A DNA stretch of 64,000 nucleotides from Rickettsiales endosymbiont of Stachyamoeba lipophora (GTDB lineage Bacteria; Pseudomonadota; Alphaproteobacteria; Rickettsiales; 33-17): positions 310,001 through 374,000 of the forward strand of contig NZ_CP033611.1 of assembly GCF_003932735.1 (NCBI RefSeq). Reading direction: 5' to 3'. The position numbers were made by a program, and so were the translations under genes. Below the pieces are notes generated by a model. The model searched no databases, was not told the origin of the DNA, and saw nothing but the letters and a program-made list of their open reading frames with translations. How positions within the stretch are numbered: the stretch's first letter is position 1; every line of letters starts with the position of its first letter. Shown here one piece after another: positions 29,649-63,220 of this stretch.

Positions 29649-30380
29649 CTAGTTTGCTACAGCATCATCCATTACATTTTCAATCGGATCAGCATCTACT
29701 GGATTCTCACGAAGCATGTAACCACGGCCCCAAACGGTTTCAATATAATTTCTACCACCTGCTGCATCTGAAAGTTTCTTACGAAGCTTACATACAAACA
29801 CATCAATAATTTTGAGTTCAGGCTCATCAATACCACCATAAAGATGATTTAAGAACATTTCTTTAGTAAGAACTGTACCTTTGCGCATAGCAAGCAATTC
29901 AAGAATTGCATATTCTTTGCTAGTAAGATGGAGTGGCTGGCTGTTAACTTCCACTGTTCTGGTATCAATATTGATTGCTACTTGGTCAAATCTAATTACT
30001 GATTCTGAATAACCTTTTGATCTACGTACAATTGCATGGATACGAGCAAGAAGCTCACTACGATCAAATGGTTTAGTAACATAATCATCTGCACCGAAAC
30101 CAAAACCTTTAACTTTTTGCTCAGAATTAGTAAGGCCAGAAAGGATCATAACAGGAGTTTTAATTTTATTATTACGAAGCCTTAATAATACTTCATAACC
30201 ATTAATATCTGGAAGCATAAGATCTAAAATAATTAGATCATAGTTACCATTATATACTTTACTAATTTGCAAACCTTCTTCACCTAAATGAGCGGTATCA
30301 TATTTAATCCCATCAGATTCCAGGAGAAGCTGCAACGACATCGCAGTGGGTCTATCGTCTTCAATTATCAAAACTTTCAC
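29649..30380 (-). CDS. ctrA: Cell-cycle response regulator CtrA
   Basis: CtrA is the OmpR-type master transcription factor of the alphaproteobacterial cell cycle. The 243-residue protein has a receiver domain with the acidic pair Glu7/Asp8-Asp9, phosphoacceptor Asp53 in LILDLMLPD, Lys in VTKPFD, and a winged-helix domain containing [15 protein letters not shown] and [11 protein letters not shown], which are characteristic of CtrA. The C terminus ends in VAN rather than the AA that ClpXP recognises in Caulobacter, so proteolysis may differ. It is transcribed alone, divergent from folC, with 244 AT-rich bases between. No CckA or ChpT is in the window. Confidence 0.95.
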
Positions 30381-52418: not shown

Positions 52419-55265
52419 TTATACAAAGGACTTATCAATTATACCTTGAGTAACTTTACTATATCTTATTGGCAGTACAAAAGTAAAGACCGAGCCTTTA
52501 TCCTGATTATTATCAGCCCATATTCTACCTTGGTGTAGTTCAATTACTTTTTTACATAAAGCAAGACCTATACCCCTGCCGCCAGCCATATTGCGAGTTT
52601 TTGACCCGATAGTAAAAGGCTCAAAAATTTCAATTAACTCTTCTTTAGGTATCCCCAGACCTTGATCAGCAATGCTAAATTCTATCTGGGAATTGCTTGC
52701 TGTTTTTTTAAGGGTAATAATGATAGTGCCTTCATTACTATATTGGATTGCATTATTGATTAAATTATCGAACACCTGCTGAATATAATATGGATCACAT
52801 TCTGCTGTAATATCAGGCTCTACATCTATTACCAATTCAAACTGTTCACTCTTTTGATTAATTTGACACCCTTCCCTAATACGCTCATCTACTAAATTGC
52901 TTAAATTAGTTTCTCTAATATCCAATTTGGTTTGTAAACTACTTAAGTTAGATAAATCTAAAATATTGTTCATAAGTGTTATAAGGCGATCAGAGCTATC
53001 AGCGATAGTTTTTGCAAGATGATAACGTTTTTCATCATTTAATTTATAATAATTATCATATAAAACTTCTCCTAAGCTAGTGATACCAGTTATAGGTGTT
53101 CTCACCTCATGGTTGAGATTATTTAAAAACTCATTTTTAAGCTCTAAAGATTTAATCAACTCTTCTTTATATTGGCGCAATTGCCCATCTAAGTGGCTAC
53201 TACGCAAGATTTCAAGCGCTTGCTGGTCTTGCTTAGGTTTAAAGAATACTACTACCATAGCGCTAATCATCAGTAATATATAGCTTATCCTTAATTTTAA
53301 ATCATAGGCATCAATATTGGTATCTATATCTCCCAAATAAAGTTGGTGATAAATTGCAGCAGAACTAGCCCCTATAATGATCATCGGTAAAGCTATTTGC
53401 CATTTAATAAGCAAGCTAATCATAACTAAATTAAGAACATAAATTATTAAGTTGGTTTCAGCAAAATGGCTAATTATAACTAAAAAACTACTGGCAAAAG
53501 CAAGTGTTATAAACACTGCGATATGCCAGACAAAACCTAAATATTTAACTCTAATACTTTCTGACCATAAGGCATTACAAATCAAACCAGTACCTATAAA
53601 CAAAGTGCCCGCTTCAATAAGATTGATAGTATTCGCATAAAATTGATAAGTAGCTTTATCTAACAGAAAAATGCTAAGCATGATTGAAATAATACTAAAA
53701 ACACCATAAGCGGTATAGGTCATACTTTCTTTTGGAGAATTAACTGCACAATATCTAACAAAATTAGGATGGAGAAGATTATTAAACATATTACTTAAAA
53801 ATTTTTGCCTCATTTGCTTTTGATATTTGCGTTGAAACTCCATTTCCTTAAGTAATGCTACATTTTTAGTACCAATCCAGCCTCCTGGCTCACCTAAGCC
53901 ATAATGAGCTGCAAGCAAAAATATTATGTTAGCAAGCATGGCCGGCACCAAACTATCAACCCCTAAGCTAGGTTGGATAAATGTCCGCCAAATCACTACG
54001 GTAACAAATCCTGCAAACATACCGGTCAGCACGGCACGGGCAGAAGTTCTAAAACCTAAAATGGCAAATAACAGCGGGATAGTTACAATAGGCTTATAGA
54101 AGTTAGCTTGCAATAACAGCAACTTAAGCAAATTGGTTGCTGATAATGCTAGAAAAATTGCTCCTATACCAATGGCTATAGCTAAGAAACGAGTAAGTAA
54201 CAATTCATTGTTAATTTTTATACCAATTGACTTACAAAAGTCATTCACAAAAATGACTGAACCAGTATTAATCCACGAATCAGCAGTGGACATAATCATT
54301 GCCATAATGCCAACTATAGCAAATCCTTTAAGGCCAGAGAAGGTATAATTATCAATGATATACATGGCAACATTATTAGGATCTAAATTAGGATTGTAAG
54401 ATAAAATTACTATGCCGCAAAAACATACAAATACACGAATAAATAAGACTATAATTGCAGCTGCTGTAAATGATGTACGAATTTGCTTAACATTTTTTGC
54501 CATCAAACTCCTTTGAAAAATAGTAGAACTAGAACCTGGTATTGCAAAATATATAAACAAACAGAAATATTCCCAGAATTTTACATTATGAATATCAAAA
54601 ACTTTGCTAACATTAAAGTTAGGATTAGTCTGCAATGTATTGATAATTAGCTCCTTACTACCAAAAGCCTGCCAAAGAAAAATAGCAAACATCGGGATAA
54701 ATACTCCAAATGCTATAAATTGTACTGCATCAGTAAAAGTAACCGCCTTAATTCCACCAAAAGCAGAATATACAATCACTACAAAGCTACTAATAAACAC
54801 TGCATACATACTTTCAATACCAAAAAAATGGCTAAAAATAGTTGAAAACACTTTAATTTGTAAGGCGGTCATGCCCACTGCTTGCGCTAAGGCGGCAATA
54901 GAAGTAATTAATCTAACTTTATTACCATTTAAATCACCCATGACCTCGGCAACCGATAATTTACCAAAAAACTCTTTCATTCTTGGACCTAATACCCATC
55001 CTTCTATTAAAAGATACAAGACGTTTCCTAATAGAGCCGATAAATACCATAAACCATTTTGATAAGTTTCAGAAATACCAACAGCAAAAGTACTACCACT
55101 GATCCAGGTGGCAACAATAGTAGCAGTAAGAGCGGGAGTTGAAAAATTACGGTTAGCTATGGCATATTCTTTAATATTTTTAATACCCCTACCGGTATAA
55201 AGACCAACAAATAAATTTATAGCTAAAAAAGCTAAGATAATAACAATATCAATATTAAAATTCAT
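52419..55265 (-). CDS. Sodium:solute symporter fused to a sensor histidine kinase
   Basis: The 948-residue protein (ATG at 55265; AAGG six bases before it) joins an SSF-type transporter, about 13 helices (1-465), to a second membrane region with about five helices (510-670) and a kinase. The kinase has an H box NHEVRTPITG (His at about 717), N box DNLINNAIQYS, G1 DQGLGIP and G2 GGRGIGLALC, so it should be active. Layout is like CbrA-type sensors but without a PAS domain. The transporter part closely matches the separate symporter just upstream, whose stop overlaps this start by 11 bases. The substrate is unknown, and no adjacent response regulator is present. Confidence 0.9.
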   Translation of the reverse strand: MNFNIDIVIILAFLAINLFVGLYTGRGIKNIKEYAIANRNFSTPALTATIVATWISGSTFAVGISETYQNGLWYLSALLGNVLYLLIEGWVLGPRMKEFFGKLSVAEVMGDLNGNKVRLITSIAALAQAVGMTALQIKVFSTIFSHFFGIESMYAVFISSFVVIVYSAFGGIKAVTFTDAVQFIAFGVFIPMFAIFLWQAFGSKELIINTLQTNPNFNVSKVFDIHNVKFWEYFCLFIYFAIPGSSSTIFQRSLMAKNVKQIRTSFTAAAIIVLFIRVFVCFCGIVILSYNPNLDPNNVAMYIIDNYTFSGLKGFAIVGIMAMIMSTADSWINTGSVIFVNDFCKSIGIKINNELLLTRFLAIAIGIGAIFLALSATNLLKLLLLQANFYKPIVTIPLLFAILGFRTSARAVLTGMFAGFVTVVIWRTFIQPSLGVDSLVPAMLANIIFLLAAHYGLGEPGGWIGTKNVALLKEMEFQRKYQKQMRQKFLSNMFNNLLHPNFVRYCAVNSPKESMTYTAYGVFSIISIMLSIFLLDKATYQFYANTINLIEAGTLFIGTGLICNALWSESIRVKYLGFVWHIAVFITLAFASSFLVIISHFAETNLIIYVLNLVMISLLIKWQIALPMIIIGASSAAIYHQLYLGDIDTNIDAYDLKLRISYILLMISAMVVVFFKPKQDQQALEILRSSHLDGQLRQYKEELIKSLELKNEFLNNLNHEVRTPITGITSLGEVLYDNYYKLNDEKRYHLAKTIADSSDRLITLMNNILDLSNLSSLQTKLDIRETNLSNLVDERIREGCQINQKSEQFELVIDVEPDITAECDPYYIQQVFDNLINNAIQYSNEGTIIITLKKTASNSQIEFSIADQGLGIPKEELIEIFEPFTIGSKTRNMAGGRGIGLALCKKVIELHQGRIWADNNQDKGSVFTFVLPIRYSKVTQGIIDKSFV

Positions 55266-56751
55266 ATTTAACCTTAGTATAAGCACTATTAGTGCTAGAT
55301 TTATTAAGTTGAAGTTTTTTCAATAATAGTTTTTTTTTAGTATGAGTCCAGCCCCCTGATTCACCTAACAGATAATGAGAGATAACTAAAAATATCAGAT
55401 TAACAAGCATGCCAGGAACCAGGCTATCTATTGTTATAATAGGTTGGATAAACGCTTTCCAAATGATCACAGTTAAAAAGCCTGCGGCCATGCCAATTAA
55501 CACACATCTGGTAGAAGTTCTAAAACCTAAAATGGCAAGTAAAAGCGGAATGGTTACAATTGGTTTATAAAAATTAGCTTGCAATAACAGCAACTCAAGC
55601 AAATTAGTTGCAGAAAGCGCCAATATAACCGCAAAAGTTCCAATAAAGGCCGCAAAAACCCTTATAAATAACAATTCATTTTTAATTTTTATATTTAATG
55701 ATTTACAAAAATCATTCACAAAAATTACTGATCCAGTGTTAATCCAAGAATCAGCTGTGGACATGATCATTGCCATAATCCCTGCAATGGCCAACCAGCC
55801 TTTAAGGCCAATAGTGCTGTAAAGATCTAACACATATATTGCTATATTATTAGGATCTAAATTAAGGTTATGAGATAATACTATAAAACCAATAAAGCAG
55901 ATAAATATATGAATGAATAATACTATGATAGCGGCCCTAGTAAAAGCCTGCGAGATTTGCGTAAGGTTTTTTGCCATCAATATTCGCTGAAAAATGGTAG
56001 AGCTTGAACTGGGTATTGCACAGTATATAAATAGAGTTAGATATTCCCAAAATTTAAGCTGATGAAAATTAAATATTTTGCCTAAATCAAAATTAGGATT
56101 AGTCTGCCAGGTACTGATAATTAATTCTTTATCGCCTAAAAACTGCCAAACAAACAACGTAAATAAGGGGATAAATATTATGAAAATAATAAATTGCAGT
56201 ACATCAGTAAATGTAATCGCCCTTATTCCGCCAAAAGCAGCATAAGCAATTACTACAAAGCTACTAACAATAACGGCATAGACACTACCCACCCCTAAAA
56301 AATGGCTAAAAATAGTTGAAAATACTTTAATTTGCAAAGCGGTCATGCCCACTGCCTGCGCTATTGCAGTAATAGCGGTGATGAGCCTTATATTTTTACC
56401 ATATAAATCACCCATTACTTCTGCAACTGATAATTTGCCTAAAAATTCTTTCATTCTTGGAGCAAATACTAGCCCAATAATGAGAAGATATAAAATAAGC
56501 CCTAAAGAAGAAGTCACATACCACAAACCATTTTTATACACTTCTGAAACCGCAATAGCAAAATAACTACCGCTAATCCAGGTGGCAACAATGGCGGCGG
56601 TTAAAGTTCCGGTAGTAAAATCCCTGTTACCAATGGCATATTCTTTAAGAGTAGCAACACTGCGCCCAGCATATAGGCCAACCAATAAATTTATAAGTAG
56701 AAAAACTATTATTATCAGCCCATCTACATTAAAAAATTTAATTGATTCCAT
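55255..56751 (-). CDS. Sodium:solute symporter (SSF family)
   Basis: The 498-residue protein is an SLC5/SSF-type secondary transporter with about 13 helices, including ATWISGSYFAIAVSEVYKNG and the core MIMSTADSWINTGSVIFVNDF. By eye roughly two thirds of its residues equal those of the N-terminal half of the kinase fusion downstream, so the two arose by duplication. The substrate cannot be told from the sequence (proline, pantothenate and other small solutes are family possibilities). It is translated just before the fusion gene and probably co-transcribed with it. Confidence 0.9.
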   Translation of the reverse strand: MESIKFFNVDGLIIIVFLLINLLVGLYAGRSVATLKEYAIGNRDFTTGTLTAAIVATWISGSYFAIAVSEVYKNGLWYVTSSLGLILYLLIIGLVFAPRMKEFLGKLSVAEVMGDLYGKNIRLITAITAIAQAVGMTALQIKVFSTIFSHFLGVGSVYAVIVSSFVVIAYAAFGGIRAITFTDVLQFIIFIIFIPLFTLFVWQFLGDKELIISTWQTNPNFDLGKIFNFHQLKFWEYLTLFIYCAIPSSSSTIFQRILMAKNLTQISQAFTRAAIIVLFIHIFICFIGFIVLSHNLNLDPNNIAIYVLDLYSTIGLKGWLAIAGIMAMIMSTADSWINTGSVIFVNDFCKSLNIKIKNELLFIRVFAAFIGTFAVILALSATNLLELLLLQANFYKPIVTIPLLLAILGFRTSTRCVLIGMAAGFLTVIIWKAFIQPIITIDSLVPGMLVNLIFLVISHYLLGESGGWTHTKKKLLLKKLQLNKSSTNSAYTKVKYEF

Positions 56752-60426: not shown

Positions 60427-61815
60427 CTATTCGGTTAAATTATTTAATTTGCTATTTTTATAGCCATATGCGAAGTAAAAAATAATCCCTAGTACCAGCC
60501 AAACTAAACAAACATCCCAGGTTGTAACTAATAAATCACTTAATAAATACATACATATTATAAACGATAATGGTGCAACAATCCACACTAAAGGACATTT
60601 AAAAGAACGTTGAAATGTTGGTATTTTAATCCTGAATATTAGCACCCCTATTGCTACTGTTAAAAATGATACTAAAATTCCAATACTAGCTAGCTTGCTT
60701 ATAAACTCTAACGGCACCAATCCCGCTACTAATGCAATTATTATTCCAACAAAAACAGTACTAATATAGGGTGTATGATATCTTTTATGAACTACAGATA
60801 ATTTATTAGGAATAAGTCCATCCCGCGCAATAGCAAACAACACTCTTGATTGGCCGAATATTTGTACAATTAAAGAAGTTGTAATCCCAGCAACAGCACC
60901 AACTGCTATAATAATTGCACCATATTTATTACCAATAGCCCGCAATGCATAAGCCATAGGCTCAGCATTATCTAAAGTATAATACGGCACAATTAAAGTT
61001 AAGGAAGCTGAAACGCTCATATATATTAAAATACAAATTAGCAATGATACTATAATCGCTATAGGTAAATCTCTTTTAGGGTTAATACTTTCTTCCGTTG
61101 CGCTAGCTAAAGCATCAAACCCTACATAAGCTAAAATTACCGTAGCAGTGCCAGTTACCAAACCCTTTGCTCCAAAAGGCATGAAATTTTCCCAATATTC
61201 AAAATTTAAATTAGGAAATGCAAACACTACAAACAATATCAGCGCCAAAGTCTTAATTACCACTAATATGATATTTATAATAGAGCTTTCCTTGGTTCCT
61301 TTAATCAAAAGCATTGTCAGCACAAGGGTAATTAATACTGGAGGTAAATTAATAATCCCGCCTTCCCATGGAGTAGTAAGAAAATCTTTAGGAATAAAAA
61401 TTCCATATCCTGATTCAAGTATACCGTTAATATAGCCACCCCACCCTATGGCGATAAGGCTTGAACCGGTGGTATATTCCATCATCATGAACCAAAAAAC
61501 TATCCAAGCAACAATTTCTCCCATTGAGGCATAAGCATAGCTATAAGAACTCCCAGAAGTTGGTATAATTGCTGCAAGCTCCAAGTATAACAATCCGGTT
61601 AGAATACACACAATCCCTGCAAGCAAATAAGAGAGCACTATTGCAGGACCGGCAAATTTTGCGGCAGCAATACCGGTCAGCACAAAGGCGCCCACCCCAA
61701 TAATGGCGCCGATACTTAGCATGGTCAAATCAGTAACAGTAAGGGTTTTTTTAAGGTTATTTTCAACAAATTCGGCTTTAATGGTAGTAAGATCAATTTT
61801 TCTTAACAAACTCAT
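60427..61815 (-). CDS. Amino-acid permease (APC family), copy 2
   Basis: The protein (462 residues from the ATG at 61815, MSLLRKIDLTT) is an APC-family transporter with 12 or more helices: IGAIIGVGAFVLTGIAAAKFAGPAIVLS, spread over 61680-61600, SGSSYSYAYASMGEIVAWI, and FDALASATEES. It starts one base after the stop of the previous permease; a start at 61836 would overlap it by 20. About half of its residues look identical to the first copy by eye. Amino-acid uptake from the host is likely; the substrate cannot be told. Confidence 0.9.
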   Translation of the reverse strand: MSLLRKIDLTTIKAEFVENNLKKTLTVTDLTMLSIGAIIGVGAFVLTGIAAAKFAGPAIVLSYLLAGIVCILTGLLYLELAAIIPTSGSSYSYAYASMGEIVAWIVFWFMMMEYTTGSSLIAIGWGGYINGILESGYGIFIPKDFLTTPWEGGIINLPPVLITLVLTMLLIKGTKESSIINIILVVIKTLALILFVVFAFPNLNFEYWENFMPFGAKGLVTGTATVILAYVGFDALASATEESINPKRDLPIAIIVSLLICILIYMSVSASLTLIVPYYTLDNAEPMAYALRAIGNKYGAIIIAVGAVAGITTSLIVQIFGQSRVLFAIARDGLIPNKLSVVHKRYHTPYISTVFVGIIIALVAGLVPLEFISKLASIGILVSFLTVAIGVLIFRIKIPTFQRSFKCPLVWIVAPLSFIICMYLLSDLLVTTWDVCLVWLVLGIIFYFAYGYKNSKLNNLTE

Positions 61816-61816
61816 A

Positions 61817-63220
61817 TTAGTCGCCACCCGTTTCAAAAATGCTCACTTTATTTAACTCACTATGTTTAATTCCATAAACAAAGTAAAATACTAAAGCAAC
61901 CACCAAACAAAGGATAAAAGCAATACCCACTTCATAGATTAACTTTTGAATAAGATATATGCATGCAATAATTGAAATAGGCGCTATTACAAAAATATAA
62001 GGACACTTAAACGGGCGCTTGACTTCCGGATGCTTAATTCTCATCTTCATAGCAGCAAGTGCTACAAATACAAAAGAGCACAGTACCGAAAGACTGGTTA
62101 TATTATTAATTGTTGCAAGTGGGAAAAAGCCAACAATCAACGCTATTAATGATCCAACGAGCAAAATACCAAATACAGGAGTGGAAAACTTGCTATGAAG
62201 CCGGGCAAGTATCTTAGGCAACAAACCATCACGCGCAATAGAATATAATACTCTTGAGGTTGCATAGATTTGCACAATTAATACAGTAGTCATCCCTGTA
62301 ACAGCTCCTACTGCTACTAGCAATGAACCAATATTACTGCCGGTTTTACGCAATGCATATGCCATGGGTTCTGCATTATTTAATTCAAAATATGGTACTA
62401 TTCCAGTTAAAATACCAGAAACAACCACGTAAATAATACCACTAATGACTAATGAACCGATAATACCAATAGGTAAATCACGGTTAGGATTTTTACACTC
62501 CTCAGCTGCTGTGGCTACCGCATCAAAACCAGTGTAAGCTAAAAATAGCGAGGCCGCACCTACTACCACTCCATCAAATCCAAAAGGCATAAAATTGGCC
62601 CAATTATCCAAATTAAATGAAGGAAGAGCTACCACTATGAAAAATCCAATTGCCGCCATTTTCACAACTACCAAAATAGTGTTTACCAATGCGGACTCTT
62701 TGGTCCCTCTAATAAGCAACAAAGAAATTATTAAAGTAATTATAATCGCTGGCAGATTGATCATCCCACCCTGCTCAGGTATAGCAGTAATAGCCAGTGG
62801 AATATTCACCCCCGCTGCTTGTAAAATACCTATAACATAACCAGACCATCCTACAGCAACTGCAGCCGCACCAAATATTAACATCATGCACACTAAGCAA
62901 CCGACAATCCATGCAAAAACTTCACCAAGTGTAACATAACAATAAGAATACGCACCTCCAGAAGTGGGAATCATCGCTGCAAGCTCAGAATAAGCCAAAG
63001 CTGTAACTATACATACTAAACACGCAATTAAAAATGAAACTGTAATTGCCGGACCTGAATATTTTGCTGCAATGGCTCCGATAATTACAAAAACCCCCAC
63101 TCCAATAATTGCGCCGATACCCATCATAATTAAATCAAAGGCTGAAAGAGTTTTTTTAAGCTCACTTTTTTCAACTGATTTTATAACTGCTTCTAAATTT
63201 TTAATGCGAAAAATATTCAT
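61817..63220 (-). CDS. Amino-acid permease (APC family), copy 1
   Basis: The 467-residue APC transporter has 12 or more helices and the motifs GIGAIIGVGVFVIIGAIAA, SGGAYSYCYVTLGEVFAWI and FDAVATAAEECKNPNRDLP. The last is typical of the cationic-type subfamily (CAT/YfnA-like). It is directly upstream of its paralogue (copy 2), so the pair arose by tandem duplication or is kept as a two-gene uptake unit. The start ATG follows ribosome-like GGGAA. Confidence 0.9.
   Translation of the reverse strand: MNIFRIKNLEAVIKSVEKSELKKTLSAFDLIMMGIGAIIGVGVFVIIGAIAAKYSGPAITVSFLIACLVCIVTALAYSELAAMIPTSGGAYSYCYVTLGEVFAWIVGCLVCMMLIFGAAAVAVGWSGYVIGILQAAGVNIPLAITAIPEQGGMINLPAIIITLIISLLLIRGTKESALVNTILVVVKMAAIGFFIVVALPSFNLDNWANFMPFGFDGVVVGAASLFLAYTGFDAVATAAEECKNPNRDLPIGIIGSLVISGIIYVVVSGILTGIVPYFELNNAEPMAYALRKTGSNIGSLLVAVGAVTGMTTVLIVQIYATSRVLYSIARDGLLPKILARLHSKFSTPVFGILLVGSLIALIVGFFPLATINNITSLSVLCSFVFVALAAMKMRIKHPEVKRPFKCPYIFVIAPISIIACIYLIQKLIYEVGIAFILCLVVALVFYFVYGIKHSELNKVSIFETGGD

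Follow-up and report, generated by a model that had tools for sequence, protein, structure and literature searches.

A symporter-kinase fusion with a CqsS-like membrane domain and its kinase-less twin in a Rickettsiales endosymbiont: a possible transporter-receptor beside a probable importer

Why would a bacterium keep a symporter gene directly beside a second gene in which a very similar symporter is joined to a histidine kinase? The question is raised by two genes on the minus strand of the window, which is the whole stretch of 64,000 nucleotides analysed here (310001-374000 of the one-contig genome, 1,738,386 bases, of the Rickettsiales endosymbiont of Stachyamoeba lipophora, a bacterium that is probably intracellular). 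The upstream gene encodes a standalone SSF symporter. The downstream gene encodes an SSF domain, a six-transmembrane (6TM) domain, and the HisKA and HATPase_c domains of a kinase in one protein, hereafter the fusion. The reading that we prefer, at a probability of roughly 0.48, treats the fusion as a transporter-receptor ('transceptor') that would report a host solute, and the standalone SSF beside it as a plain importer.

The earlier note on this DNA had described two genes with an overlap of 11 bases and closely related SSF transporters, of which only the downstream one carries a kinase, with complete motifs. The open reading frames (ORFs), the Pfam matches, and the identity of the two SSF parts (323/470 residues, 69%) bear this description out. 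The whole SSF profile is covered in both proteins, at E 2.9e-20 (73 bits) in the fusion and 1.1e-17 (64.5 bits) in the standalone protein, where the cut-off is 22.8 bits. The HisKA (2.8e-12) and HATPase_c (5.2e-27) families are matched in the fusion only, both above cut-off. The five boxes of the kinase (H, N, G1, F, and G2) are all present and in order. They are HEVRTP from residue 719, NLINNAIQ from 834, DQGLGIP from 867, FEPF from 881, and GGRGIGLALCK from 895, numbered from the ATG. The earlier note overlooked the membrane domain, further paralogues in the same genome, and two response regulators in the window. The coordinates of all features are shown in Table 1.

The overlap and the AAGG just upstream of the fusion start suggest that the standalone SSF and the fusion may be translationally coupled. 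A GTG at 55286 would be an alternative start of the fusion and would give 955 amino acids and an overlap of 32 bases. The ATG at 55265 is better supported because the six homologous fusion ORFs that were inspected use the same kind of start and because the AAGG stands just before it.

Table 1. Coordinates of the gene pair, the domains of the fusion, and the response regulators in the window.
Feature	Position in window	Strand	Basis
Upstream gene of the pair: standalone SSF symporter of SLC5 type, 498 amino acids	55255..56751	minus	ORF, Pfam, SSF tree
SSF-6TM-HisKA-HATPase fusion gene, 948 amino acids from the ATG, stop at 52419	52419..55265	minus	ORF, Pfam, motifs
Fusion SSF domain, residues 1-470	53856..55265	minus	Pfam, SSF tree, structure match
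CqsS-like six-helix membrane domain of the fusion, residues about 496-690	53196..53780	minus	Profile comparison; no Pfam family
Fusion HisKA domain, residues 710-775, predicted phospho-accepting H719	52941..53138	minus	Pfam, motif
Fusion HATPase_c domain, residues 824-933	52467..52796	minus	Pfam, motifs
11-base gene overlap: fusion ATG, preceded by AAGG, within the final codons of the upstream gene	55255..55265	minus	
Candidate partner (putative): single-domain response regulator, 130 amino acids	36651..37043	plus	Receiver tree, BLAST
CtrA response regulator	29649-30380		Above NCBIfam cut-off

The SSF tree was constructed from 57 rows selected from 116 matching ORFs; repeats of the same place, fragments, near-identical copies, and loci L141-L200 were left out. 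The standalone SSF, the SSF of the window fusion, and the SSF of another fusion in the same genome (L050) form a 3-row clade (100/99). The two window SSF parts thus do not group with different outside families, and the duplication proposed in the earlier note stands. The 3-row clade is nested in a 36-row clade that holds 30 fusions, the standalone genes of the window and of L068, and four split or broken genes. The count of changes on the tree left out four split or broken rows (L104, L105, L121, and L122). Because 30 of the 36 rows are fusions and four of the remaining six are split or broken, the fusion appears to be the older form, and the simplest reading of the standalone gene is that it derives from a fusion and has no kinase. 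The direction given in the earlier note, in which a transporter copy became the sensor, is not upheld, since the standalone gene sits among fusions and is probably a copy of the fusion that lost its kinase. Within the 3-row clade, the two fusions, that of the window and L050, are joined by the tree (96/62). The grouping of the standalone SSF with the window fusion was not rejected by the approximately unbiased (AU) test (p = 0.35), and the proportion of synonymous differences (pS) is lowest for these two (0.57, the others being 0.69 and 0.75). No near-identical tract was found between the window SSF parts in stretches of 30 codons (highest 0.87 of bases), therefore there is no sign of very recent gene conversion, and older conversion is conceivable.

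The recurrence of such pairs was assessed among 95 distinct ORFs of at least 830 amino acids with an SSF from the fetched loci, a set that was selected by match and is hence non-random. Narrow loci were left out, identical proteins were counted once, and 85 of the 95 fusion ORFs have at least 1.5 kb of sequence on both sides. An intact standalone SSF is directly upstream of four fusions (those of the window, L051 with two in a row, L068, and L109). At each of the four loci, the standalone SSF is in a clade of bootstrap 100 with its neighbouring fusion; three of these clades are exclusive to their locus and the window clade also has L050. The six standalone rows (five tandem rows and L052) as one clade were rejected (p-AU 9.8e-48), which points to repeated origins of the pairs or to conversion that keeps their members alike. 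Short SSF pieces upstream at L153 and L188 are read as broken starts. SSF stretches downstream at L177 and L195 are cut by the end of the fetched sequence or contig. The genome G189 has two tandem fusion pairs that are near copies of each other (L117:6481-11952 and L141:3348-8803), where the kinase of the upstream member has neither an H-box nor the last part of the ATPase domain. These upstream copies are a plausible half-way stage to kinase loss. Two further rows of transporter genes were observed. The genome G105 has a run of three overlapping standalone SSF genes (L192:52-4363), with no kinase among the matched ORFs. The window itself has another adjacent duplicate transporter pair on the minus strand, i.e. 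overlapping ORFs at 60427-61836 and 61817-63220 that resemble similar amino-acid permeases by eye.

Both window copies retain A, D, S, and T at the positions aligned with A53, D187, S340, and T341 of PutP, which we take to be the sodium-site positions. The standalone gene has an uninterrupted frame of 498 codons, and the ratio of nonsynonymous to synonymous substitution rates (dN/dS) between it and the fusion SSF is 0.20 at dS about 1.05, which suggests that the standalone SSF has been kept under purifying selection. The low ratio and the kept sodium site argue that the standalone copy matters. The choice of positions agrees with the passages of PMC7918813 on this site, where CbrA is reported without the conserved residues that both window copies have kept.

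The segment between the SSF and the kinase of the fusion comprises about 200 hydrophobic residues with predicted membrane helices, and no Pfam family matches it. A kinase without an SSF in the same genome (L053) matches the middle part and the kinase of the fusion. The matches of L053 among the named plasmid records include a low-scoring 6TM-kinase with a receiver from Vibrio campbellii. That record carries no annotation and was called CqsS from its layout and its neighbour gene, which scores 697 bits on the autoinducer-synthase model (cut-off 428). The subsequent profile-against-profile comparisons used the membrane parts alone, and the CqsS-type profile was built from eight domains, namely the reference CqsS and seven of the 13 records matched by its membrane part. 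The profile of the own-genome paralogues L051 and L053 matches the CqsS-type domains at E 1.7e-16. The window-type domains (40 sequences) match L051/L053 at E 3.5e-10 and match the eight CqsS-type domains directly at E 6.7e-6. The intermediate kinases L085, L086, and L088 match the CqsS-type domains at E 4.5e-33 and the window-type domains at 6.3e-10. The best control (reversed profiles and SSF segments) gave E 0.034. Single sequences were above the best reversed or shuffled control for 34 of 42 family domains. These results indicate that the middle domain of the fusion is homologous, through intermediates, to the CqsS-type sensor domain.

The signal is weaker when single sequences are compared. 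The remaining eight of the 42 family domains are not above the best reversed or shuffled control. The 6TM domain of the window itself is diverged, with 11.6 bits in a small test set, and it is not among the matches of the CqsS-type profile at E 1e-3 when all ORFs are searched. The AlphaFold model of the fusion (mean pLDDT, the predicted local distance difference test, 61.5), for which six sequences could be used, has six low-confidence helices in the middle part, mostly below 55. Its matches in the PDB are SLC5 transporters and histidine kinases, and it gives weak support, to the SSF and kinase folds only. The homology of the window domain rests on the intermediates because the single-sequence signal is weak.

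The fusion can be compared with two known types of kinase. CbrA, CrbS (MxtR), and RpuS likewise have an N-terminal SLC5/SSF domain fused to a HisKA/HATPase kinase, and the accounts of their architecture in PMC13022988, PMC9100948, and PMC7918813 list SLC5, a cytoplasmic STAC bundle, PAS, and kinase for CbrA and its kin. The window fusion has a hydrophobic CqsS-like membrane domain whereas the CbrA type has the cytoplasmic STAC four-helix bundle, and no PAS match was found in the fusion by Pfam up to E 1. A STAC linker of the CbrA type was considered for the middle segment and rejected, as this stretch has the character of a membrane region and can be aligned to CqsS-type domains; it was set apart from STAC by description. 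The fusion may work like CbrA without belonging to the CbrA family. CqsS and LqsS share with the fusion a six-helix sensor domain that runs into HisKA/HATPase, but the fusion differs in the SSF in front and in the strong divergence of its 6TM domain. Only two CqsA relatives were found in the genome, one BioF-like (199 bits) and one ALAS-type (188 bits), against the synthase cut-off of 428. With no CqsA-type synthase recognised, a self-made alpha-hydroxyketone finds no support as the input, and this could be a molecule from the host or a neighbour or the transporter itself.

The architecture SSF-6TM-HisKA-HATPase is a large family in Rickettsiales. At least 76 of 262 genomes of the order match the fusion with an E value of 1e-40 or better, partial matches included, where at most three candidates were scored per genome in most genomes. 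The search of named genome contigs gave four loci, labelled Rickettsiaceae, Rickettsiales, Rickettsia endosymbiont, and Alphaproteobacteria. Among the 95 ORFs, the six-helix profiles are matched in 91, the kinase profile, which was built from four sequences, in 83, and the receiver profile in 11. Rickettsial SLC5sbd+HK proteins are mentioned as 'data not shown' (PMC5615194), and the full-length PutP of Orientia is given as symporter, HisKA, HATPase, and REC (PMC10732058). These proteins are very probably of the same family, as SSF-kinase fusions that have proliferated in Rickettsiaceae. The passages of both papers on these proteins name no middle domain, CqsS relationship, standalone/fusion pair, or partner regulator. 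The SSF-kinase fusion is thus already known in rickettsiae, and no mention of the CqsS-like part or of the pair was found in the literature searched.

The family also has variants. An unfused form is present in G494, which belongs to the same class and another order, where an SSF gene, a 6TM-kinase gene, and an LqsR-like regulator gene follow one another as in an operon (L131:1043-5039). Two Cardinium plasmids encode SSF proteins without a kinase match in Pfam (L099:3941-7408 and L098:3929-7072). The L099 protein ends in an HD_4 domain, and its output domain seems to have been exchanged; at L098, the gene after the SSF gene is a separate one that carries the annotation HD domain. In four loci of the same order (L042, L045, L048, and L068), Pfam finds no HisKA and a weak ATPase or none, although some remain recognisable to the local kinase profile; these are possible pseudokinases. 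The fusions on Megaera/Megaira plasmids (L073:3504-6299 and L103:3995-6784) are annotated as 'alkaline phosphatase' and are evidently misnamed.

To which regulator would the kinase pass its signal? The earlier note had correctly pointed out that none is adjacent. No receiver gene adjoins the pair, and the receiver profile finds only two in the window, at least 15 kb away (Table 1). The earlier note had also proposed that the regulator be identified by co-occurrence. The candidate here is the single-domain receiver, whose spread among the 262 genomes is not decisive because 150 of them match at E 1e-12 and the search cannot separate receiver types. The receiver tree has 42 rows and is without the two LqsR-like regulators of the genome. 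The candidate groups (96/87) with receivers near SSF-6TM-kinases in G017 (L107, 138 bases upstream of the fusion), G038 (L108, about 5 kb), and G210 (L189, about 3.5 kb). Apart from these four, the enclosing 14-row set (90/85, drawn open) has nine receivers that belong to hybrid SSF-6TM-kinases and one that belongs to a 6TM-kinase, and the nine other receiver domains of the genome in the tree are outside that set. By BLAST, four of 12 receivers of relatives (L108, L164, L189, and L200) match the candidate best among the receivers of the genome. Three kinases of G006, whose match extends over the kinase and the whole or a part of the 6TM stretch, have a candidate-type receiver in the same open frame. 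Other observations count against the candidate. It lies about 15 kb from the pair on the opposite strand, the bootstrap of the receiver tree has not settled, and the G210 receiver (L189) is beside another kinase fragment. The other eight of the 12 receivers, L107 among them, match another one best; L107 prefers CtrA and others. The evidence is mixed, and the single-domain receiver is no more than the best candidate for the partner.

The two LqsR-like regulators were considered as orphan partners and rejected, as each is beside its own 6TM-kinase. These two Lqs-like pairs, each a CqsS-type 6TM-kinase beside an LqsR-like regulator, are at L226:11069-13367 (C1 about 1311069-1313367) and L227:6557-8995 (C1 about 1331557-1333995). 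Their likeness to LqsS/LqsR is in the layout only, as that system is outlined in PMC3376566. A third LqsR-like match in the genome is a short fragment. Regulators of the LqsR layout come after 6TM-kinases in G494 and G033, and this type of partner is used elsewhere, because G033 has one 2 bases after its SSF-6TM-kinase.

The preferred reading of the pair would work as follows. The SSF of the fusion would bind or transport a host solute, and its conformational cycle or occupancy would be the signal. The state of the SSF would be passed to the CqsS-type six-helix domain, which is predicted to be continuous with the dimerisation helix of the kinase, and from there to HisKA/HATPase. The phosphoryl group would most likely go to a single-domain receiver encoded elsewhere, with the candidate of Table 1 as the best choice. 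The standalone SSF would, most likely, import the same or a similar solute without signalling, and one putative operon, perhaps with co-translation, would thus encode importer and sensor. CbrA, which is described as a protein that transports and signals, is a precedent (PMC13022988, PMC7918813), and RpuS/R is described in PMC9100948 as controlling the pyruvate symporter MctP. Some points tell against the preferred reading. The SLC5 part of CbrA alone gave no growth on histidine in the experiments cited from PMC13022988, so transport and signalling need not coincide. The pair is also not needed for function, because the standalone partner is found with only four of the 95 fusions.

Other explanations give the two halves of the pair different roles. 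The signal might be read by the CqsS-like domain, as a small hydrophobic molecule or a membrane state, with the SSF supplying or removing the ligand or serving as an anchor. The homology of the 6TM domain to the ligand-binding part of CqsS and the 6TM-kinases without SSF in the same genome (L053, L226, and L227) favour this; the missing match to a CqsA-type synthase and the retained sodium-site residues of the SSF part make it unlikely. An arrangement in which both inputs count, so that transporter and quorum-receptor domain form a two-input receptor that jointly sets the kinase output, is somewhat doubtful. Kinase-less twins would in that case have been re-created independently in several lineages, which would place import and reporting side by side.

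The standalone SSF might instead be a decoy or regulator of the kinase, tuning it by solute binding or through mixed dimers with the fusion. The 11-base overlap with possibly coupled synthesis would suit such a role, the identity of 69% would permit mixed dimers, and the upstream partner in G189 still has a broken kinase, as a regulatory subunit might. Plain transport is the usual role of SSF proteins, however, and the standalone protein keeps the sodium-site residues, and we regard a decoy as quite unlikely. The pair might also be neutral debris, with the standalone SSF as a truncated copy that is decaying in a gene family that proliferates. Broken, split, and truncated members of the family are indeed common in these genomes, but a frame of 498 open codons with the low dN/dS given above and the intact standalone-upstream pairs in several lineages make decay very unlikely.

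The Rickettsiales depend on host metabolites, and the SSF-kinase family is large in this order. The arrangement in the window hints at two versions of one transporter, one that also signals and one that only transports. The CqsS-like middle domain gives a testable input mechanism. The same transporter is present with and without a kinase side by side, and this natural matched control makes it testable whether a transporter can become a receptor.

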